Assembly: GCA_019242655.1 (NCBI GenBank)
Contig: JAFAVH010000261.1
Span: forward strand, 1 to 35,432
DNA: 35,432 bases
Origin: Methylobacteriaceae bacterium
GTDB lineage: Bacteria > Pseudomonadota > Alphaproteobacteria > Rhizobiales > Beijerinckiaceae
Reading direction: 5' to 3'
Shown: positions 4,138 to 4,587 of the stretch, in pieces
How the letters are laid out: each line of letters starts with the position of its first letter
Numbering within the stretch: the stretch's first letter is position 1
Made by a program: the position numbers and the translations under genes
The notes under the pieces: model-generated
Told to the model about the DNA's origin: nothing
The model's database searches: none
The model's input: only the letters and a program-made list of their open reading frames with translations

Positions 4138-4295
4138 GCTTCGCGCGGAAAGACTACTGATCTTCCACATTATTCTGCGAAGCAACGCGACATCGTCGCG
4201 TATTCTTGACGTTACTTGAGTTGGACGGATGCCGCGCCACTGCATAGGCGTGCGTCATCGCGCTCGCCGCATCATGCGCGAGTCTTGGCAAGAGG

Positions 4296-4355
4296 ACACG
4301 GGCGCCGGGCGGCCGCATCTAAAACTAAAAACACCGGTCACCCGGCGCCACGTGT
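4296..4355. repeat. Long inverted repeat/hairpin
   Basis: ACACG-GGCGCCGGG (4296-4309) pairs with CCCGGCGCC-a-CGTGT (4341-4355); 14 bp with one bulged A and a 31-nt loop. Confidence 0.6.
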
Positions 4356-4448
4356 ACGGCGATTTCTGTCCCTTGCTTCCCGCATCTTCGCGGACTTCGG
4401 TGCTGCCACCTAAATCCGCTTAAGCGATCTGAGCCGCGGACCGGTCCA

Positions 4449-4496
4449 GAGCACGGCCAGCAAAAGTGGAAGCCGGTTTTGCGTCCGGCCGTGCTC
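4449..4496. repeat. Rhizobiales-type palindromic intergenic element, copy 1
   Basis: GAGCACGGCC-A-GCAAAA-GTGGAAGCCGG-TTTTGC-GTCC-GGCCGTGCTC. Confidence 0.7.
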
Positions 4497-4510
4497 TCAC
4501 GAATAGAATG

Positions 4511-4559
4511 GCGCGTGATCTCATCGGCGAACCGGTTCCCACTTCGCCGGATCACGCGC
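4511..4559. repeat. Rhizobiales-type palindromic intergenic element, copy 2 (inverted relative to copy 1)
   Basis: Reverse complement reads GCGCGTGATC-CGGCGAA-GTGGGAACCGG-TTCGCCG-ATGA-GATCACGCGC; same architecture as copy 1. Confidence 0.7.
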
Positions 4560-4587
4560 TGTGCCGGACGGGCGGGTTACTCCGCGT

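Follow-up and report, generated by a model that had tools for sequence, protein, structure and literature searches.

The 111-nt segment at positions 4449–4559 of the window (the entire 35,432-nt stretch of DNA analysed here, from a Methylobacteriaceae bacterium) is, with a probability of about 0.9, a MITE of the IS630/Tc1-mariner type, mobilised in trans and of the same kind as RUP. This assignment draws on features that can be read directly from the sequences: the boundaries of the unit, the target site and its duplication in relatives, the terminal sequences found also in IS630 elements, recent copying within a genome belonging to the same family, the coincidence with stop codons, and the empty sites. 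The cutting is probably done by a GAGC-type subfamily of IS630 transposases, and the window copy itself has presumably lost its mobility, given the damage to its TA flanks and the decayed state of the only such transposase recovered from the MAG. The features of the locus are as follows.

4449–4559, no strand: complete two-palindrome unit of the putative MITE, 111 nt, precisely what other copies of the host repeat are without
4449–4496, plus strand: palindrome copy 1, with outer stem 4449–4458/4487–4496; covariance model score, 51.8 bits
4459–4486, plus strand: inner parts of copy 1, namely bulged A at 4459, inner stem 4460–4465/4477–4482, core 4466–4476, and spacer 4483–4486
4497–4510, no strand: linker TCACGAATAGAATG, 14 nt, joining the 3' sides of both palindromes
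4511–4559, minus strand: palindrome copy 2, with outer stem 4550–4559/4511–4520 and core GTGGGAACCGG at 4532–4542; 65.6 bits
4447–4448: left junction CA in place of the (C)TA of intact family members, with one base lost from the expected TA
4560–4561: right junction TG, where intact family members have TA(G), from comparison with uninterrupted host sites
4290–4446, minus strand: 3' part of the host repeat, 80–87% identical to other copies in the same genome
4561–4728, minus strand: 5' part of the host repeat, 94.6% identical over 167 nt to a copy on contig C125 (L113)

The palindromic unit and its host repeat

Copy 1 is composed, in order, of GAGCACGGCC / A / GCAAAA / GTGGAAGCCGG / TTTTGC / GTCC / GGCCGTGCTC, and copy 2, read on the minus strand, of GCGCGTGATC / CGGCGAA / GTGGGAACCGG / TTCGCCG / ATGA / GATCACGCGC, with ATGA as its spacer. 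The stems, core, and spacers of both copies agree with those in the preliminary description, which had missed the unpaired A at 4459. The 14-nt gap between the copies was also correctly given there; the arrangement, described as head-to-head, is instead tail-to-tail, since the 3' sides, which carry the spacers, point towards each other. A linker of ~15 nt occupies the equivalent position in the units of R. leguminosarum. Perfect 10-bp inverted repeats alone are not beyond chance (four in the window versus 0–5 in Markov controls), and the core occurs twice in the window versus 0.25 times expected; the joint architecture goes far beyond what chance would give. A covariance model (R1) trained on 32 elements from other genomes, with the window copies excluded, recovers both copies at 65.6 and 51.8 bits, with E-values of 2.5e-18 and 6e-14 in the window and of 2.7e-16 and 6.3e-12 at whole-genome scope. 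The compensatory covariation proposed from the two copies proved strong, with 14 of 17 stem pairs covarying and 101 double-change cells versus 31 in shuffles.

Judged by the uninterrupted copies of the host repeat, the palindrome pair is a single inserted unit, which the preliminary description had overlooked. It breaks up one copy of a repeat of ~450 nt, of which this genome contains more than 15 copies. We found 27 uninterrupted host sites in two species, all of which have a central TA and read CCGGCA-xTAx-ACCGG. Within its own genome, the 111-nt insert is present in one of more than 20 host copies, the one in the window. In the sister species, the pair recurs at this site in one of ~28 host-repeat matches, and the upstream and other DNA of that copy is unlike that of the window; the composite may therefore owe its spread to duplication of the host repeat and not to a new insertion. 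The layout of the window unit is that of the 98–101-bp units of G014, a genome from the same bacterial family, and of the ~114-bp units of R. leguminosarum.

Target site, candidate transposase, and distribution

The boundaries are best seen in G014: the flanks of its 20 near-identical copies are unrelated, and at either end similarity stops immediately beyond TA. The left flanks are CTA in 12 copies, TTA in five, ATA in two, and CTG in one, and the right flanks are TAG in 17 and TAA in three; the unit is 101 nt long in 19 copies and 98 nt in one, and ends in GAGC. Because the outer left and right bases differ among copies, the duplication comprises TA, with CTAG as the preferred target. Six of the G014 copies (L364, L368, L369, L372, L376, and L378) abut another repeat end, CTAGCAGGCTGCTGAAAA, which is also a source of CTAG. 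Allelic comparison in R. leguminosarum, where the unit likewise consists of two palindromes, gave CTAG (or TTAG or CTAA) in empty strains and CTAG-element-CTAG in the filled allele. Among 121 elements, 37 have ends matching in at least 7 of 10 positions, mostly 97–104 nt apart. Thus, short non-coding repeats with terminal inverted repeats are found in the G014 units, and duplication of TA, preferentially within CTAG, in relatives; in the window the ends are weak, agreeing at only 5 of 10 bases, and the site lies at TA with a damaged duplication (CA...TG).

Four other alphaproteobacteria contain elements of the IS630 family (DDE_3) that have GAGC termini and are flanked by CTAG at either end. 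The one in G020 is 1083 bp long with the terminal inverted repeats GAGCATTTTCCGATCAAT / GAGCGTTTTCCTATCTAC and has a transposase gene broken into pieces; those of Polymorphobacter (1051 bp), Chelativorans (1044 bp), and Roseomonas (1048 bp) have terminal inverted repeats related to GAGCATTTTCCGATCAAT, are plasmid-borne, and are annotated as "IS630 family transposase". The G014 elements start with GAGCATTTTCCG, identical to the start of the G020 insertion sequence. Autonomous IS630 elements with matching ends thus occur in other alphaproteobacteria, and the genome of the window retains a remnant, a decayed IS630 fragment that is 60–69% identical to the GAGC-type transposases and ends in GGCTCTAG; an intact GAGC-type IS630 was not found in this incomplete MAG. 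Other IS630 elements of these genomes have different termini (GTGTCCT.. in some candidates). In the proposed mechanism, each end of the unit would consist of a GAGC-type terminal repeat that pairs with an inverted copy of itself further inside, giving a palindrome around an oriented core, with the two halves arranged tail-to-tail. The DDE transposase of an IS630 element with the same GAGC termini would excise the unit and insert it at TA, preferentially in CTAG, duplicating the TA; the landing site of the window element would have been the apical loop of a structured repeat.

The same target choice bears on the position of the elements relative to genes, which was determined with a simple ORF caller with a codon-position filter and checked against annotated records. 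The 5' neighbour is in sense for 82 of 121 elements, and the stop codon of the upstream gene lies exactly at the TAG position of the element in 34 of the 121. Convergent neighbours are nearer on the 5' side in 26 cases versus 6, and tandem neighbours in sense in 50 versus 18. This gene-end signal depends partly on the simple ORF caller, and the annotated records agree, the NCBI PGAP annotation giving the same gene-end placement in five plasmid contexts. With element-adjacent genes excluded, CTAG is present at 6.6% of gene ends versus 0.016% of intragenic positions, a 416-fold difference that explains the 34 elements supplying the stop codon of the upstream gene. Being rare within genes and common as C-TAG stops, CTAG would cause insertions to accumulate at gene ends, where such insertions are harmless because insertion into C-TAG regenerates the stop codon.

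The claim that the element is abundant in Rhizobiales was borne out, as 184 of 298 genomes in the order contain the family, as do 84 of 123 genera, and the consensus given in the preliminary description is nearly identical to that of L048. Copy numbers within the bacterial family of the window genome range from 0 to at least 145. The element is also found in named Rhizobiales, Rhodobacterales, Caulobacterales, Sphingomonadales, and Rhodospirillales, and on plasmids of Rhizobium, Bradyrhizobium, and Sinorhizobium; one element-bearing record labelled Arenimonas is a MAG, for which a binning error is possible. Searching the literature for the exact sequence gave no matches. The genome of the window (a 3.7-Mb MAG in 434 contigs) contains only two AAGTGGNANCCGGTT cores, both in the window. 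Five relatives in the same genome (L107–L111) keep the arms and a 4–5-nt spacer and have a ~30-nt nested hairpin within the core loop; three of them lie directly after GTGTCCT of the host repeat. Further variants include head-to-tail arrays of palindrome I in G020, with a ~60-bp period and up to five units (L063, L064, L066, L068, and L070–L072), and a G030 form, seen in many copies (L037, L052, L076, L078, L080, and L083–L085), whose 5' arm contains an additional segment of ~22 nt (CCGAAGGTCCGCGT..). A sewage phage record, MW091529 (L104), has one copy directly at the end of an annotated tail tape measure protein gene.

Alternative readings of the palindromes

That the palindromes are REP/BIME-type repeats moved by a RAYT (a Y1/HUH transposase) via single-stranded hairpins is scarcely credible, even though they are palindromic and intergenic with an oriented core bearing a GTGG motif. 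In a manual cross-count of two lists over 298 genomes, the element is present in 38 of 48 Y1-bearing versus 146 of 250 Y1-free genomes (p = 0.009, uncorrected for relatedness or genome size). The same count means, however, that 146 of the 184 element-bearing genomes have no Y1 gene, so that the suggested search for a cognate RAYT ended instead with an IS630-family DDE transposase as the fitting enzyme. Instead of a 20–40-bp hairpin with a tetranucleotide tag at its foot, as in REP/BIME repeats, the palindromes are 48–49 bp long and carry GTGG in the loop, and neither TA duplication in CTAG nor termini shared with IS630 are features of RAYT systems. A RAYT was rejected as the general mover across the 298 genomes, a resident one not being needed. 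The only Y1_Tnp match in the window's genome is a 163-aa ORF at the contig end of another contig (L058; G000 C316), and no element copy was seen beside it. Different considerations apply to the host repeat, which is ~320–450 nt long with 27 matches in its own genome and 28 in the sister species (L113–L129 and L336–L343); it was found in none of 24 other genomes, being genus-specific among the 26 searched, and has no Rfam match. With a conserved promoter-like TTGAC-N16/17-CTA upstream and a predicted multibranch consensus of 71 pairs, 16 of which have double changes and many of which are G.U, it looks like an undescribed structured RNA. The palindrome pair lies exactly in an apical loop of this predicted structure (columns 194–213) and recurs at the same site in the sister species, as would be expected if it had been exapted as a domain of the host RNA and were not there by chance insertion; with a single carrier among more than 20 host copies of the window genome and a single one among ~28 matches in the sister species, such an exaptation is quite improbable. 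The broader proposal of an undescribed structured RNA family, some copies of which have MITE palindromes as extra loop hairpin domains, is likewise doubtful; if true, a mobile DNA hairpin would have turned into a variable module of an RNA family.

The preliminary description argued for a function at the level of RNA or cruciform DNA. On the RNA side, the hairpins would stabilise mRNAs at their 3' ends, terminate transcription, or serve as sRNAs, and selection on RNA pairing would account for the covariation, in keeping with the location of elements in sense just 3' of stop codons and with the copy contained in each of the Rfam Brucella sRNA families BASRCI27 and BASRCI408. Copies of the element are accordingly transcribed, and for BASRCI408, RT-PCR evidence and a reporter effect are listed (PMC9751625). 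No Rfam match at the gathering threshold was found in the window; the element shows sub-threshold similarity to RF02600 and RF02599. Those two families, RF02600 (BASRCI27) and RF02599 (BASRCI408), L211 3856–4007, apparently are, or contain, copies of the mobile element. We nevertheless regard the RNA-level reading as unlikely. With the register set by Watson–Crick pairs only, the stem mismatches in 122 non-redundant elements comprise 31 G.T versus 29 A.C (95% interval of the G.T share, 0.38–0.65), whereas selection on RNA would favour G.U and not tolerate A.C; the equal numbers leave no RNA-level signature, and the claimed RNA function is not upheld. The host repeat, in contrast, has 140 G.T versus 5 A.C under its own RNAalifold consensus, a comparison that is only suggestive because the structure was predicted with G.U allowed. 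Moreover, many copies are antisense to or distant from genes, and the gene-end position is accounted for by target-site logic without an RNA function; stop-codon placement as a sign of such function was dropped, since the empty alleles reveal target choice. The cruciform part of the argument holds insofar as the palindromes are conserved as DNA, the reason being that they form the termini of a transposable element. A further possibility, to which we give well under even odds, is that the perfect palindromes are kept by template-switching during replication (quasipalindrome correction) rather than by selection. Double Watson–Crick changes almost without one-sided intermediates and the symmetric G.T/A.C residues fit such intrastrand copying, which leaves the spread, boundaries, and TA duplication unexplained; the conservation of cores and GAGC termini across orders also indicates that some constraint acts. 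Template-switching is compatible with the MITE explanation, as a way in which the arms stay complementary.

Related repeats and implications

The closest functional counterpart is RUP of Streptococcus pneumoniae, a 107-bp repeat with IS630-Spn1 as its proposed mover (PMC2229807). Both are non-coding, of similar size, and targeted to TA, and have terminal repeats in common with an IS630 element; they differ in sequence and phylum, and the window family has palindromic ends and a CTAG preference at stop codons. RIME1 and RIME2 of Rhizobium, reportedly described by Osteras in 1995, are said to be 108–109 bp long with two large palindromes. The elements compared here from R. leguminosarum (~114 bp) and S. 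meliloti pSymB fit this length and layout, and RIME, as judged by these two features, probably belongs to the same family; a target site, duplication, and IS partner are not known to have been described for it. The palindromic Bru-RS1 and Bru-RS2 of Brucella, 103–106 bp (PMC2267715, PMC10800456), are similar in size and are also probably the same family, as judged by size and host; a Brucella pituitosa unit measures 101 nt from TA to TA and matches the BASRCI27 model at 55 bits. A limited literature search found no paper linking RIME or Bru-RS to IS630. Other palindromic intergenic repeats of alphaproteobacteria, the GTAG- and CGTC-tagged REPs (PMC3733652) and Br-REP1/2 (PMC5082802), resemble the window family in these respects but are either 20–40 bp long with a tag at one end or of other sequences, and the GTAG repeats are RAYT-associated. 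ERIC and Correia/NEMIS are likewise non-coding MITEs with TA at their flanks, and are transcribed and able to fold (PMC2229807); they differ in sequences and hosts, an IS partner not being reported for them in that paper.

The finding unites repeats known under different names, probably including RIME and Bru-RS, with entries catalogued as Brucella sRNAs, and gives them a likely common mover in the GAGC-ended IS630 subfamily. The position at stop codons is accounted for by the choice of target site, RNA function not being invoked, and the count of G.T versus A.C mismatches offers a simple way to tell DNA palindromes and RNA hairpins apart. G014, with its 20 near-identical copies, provides a setting in which movement of the element can be tested.
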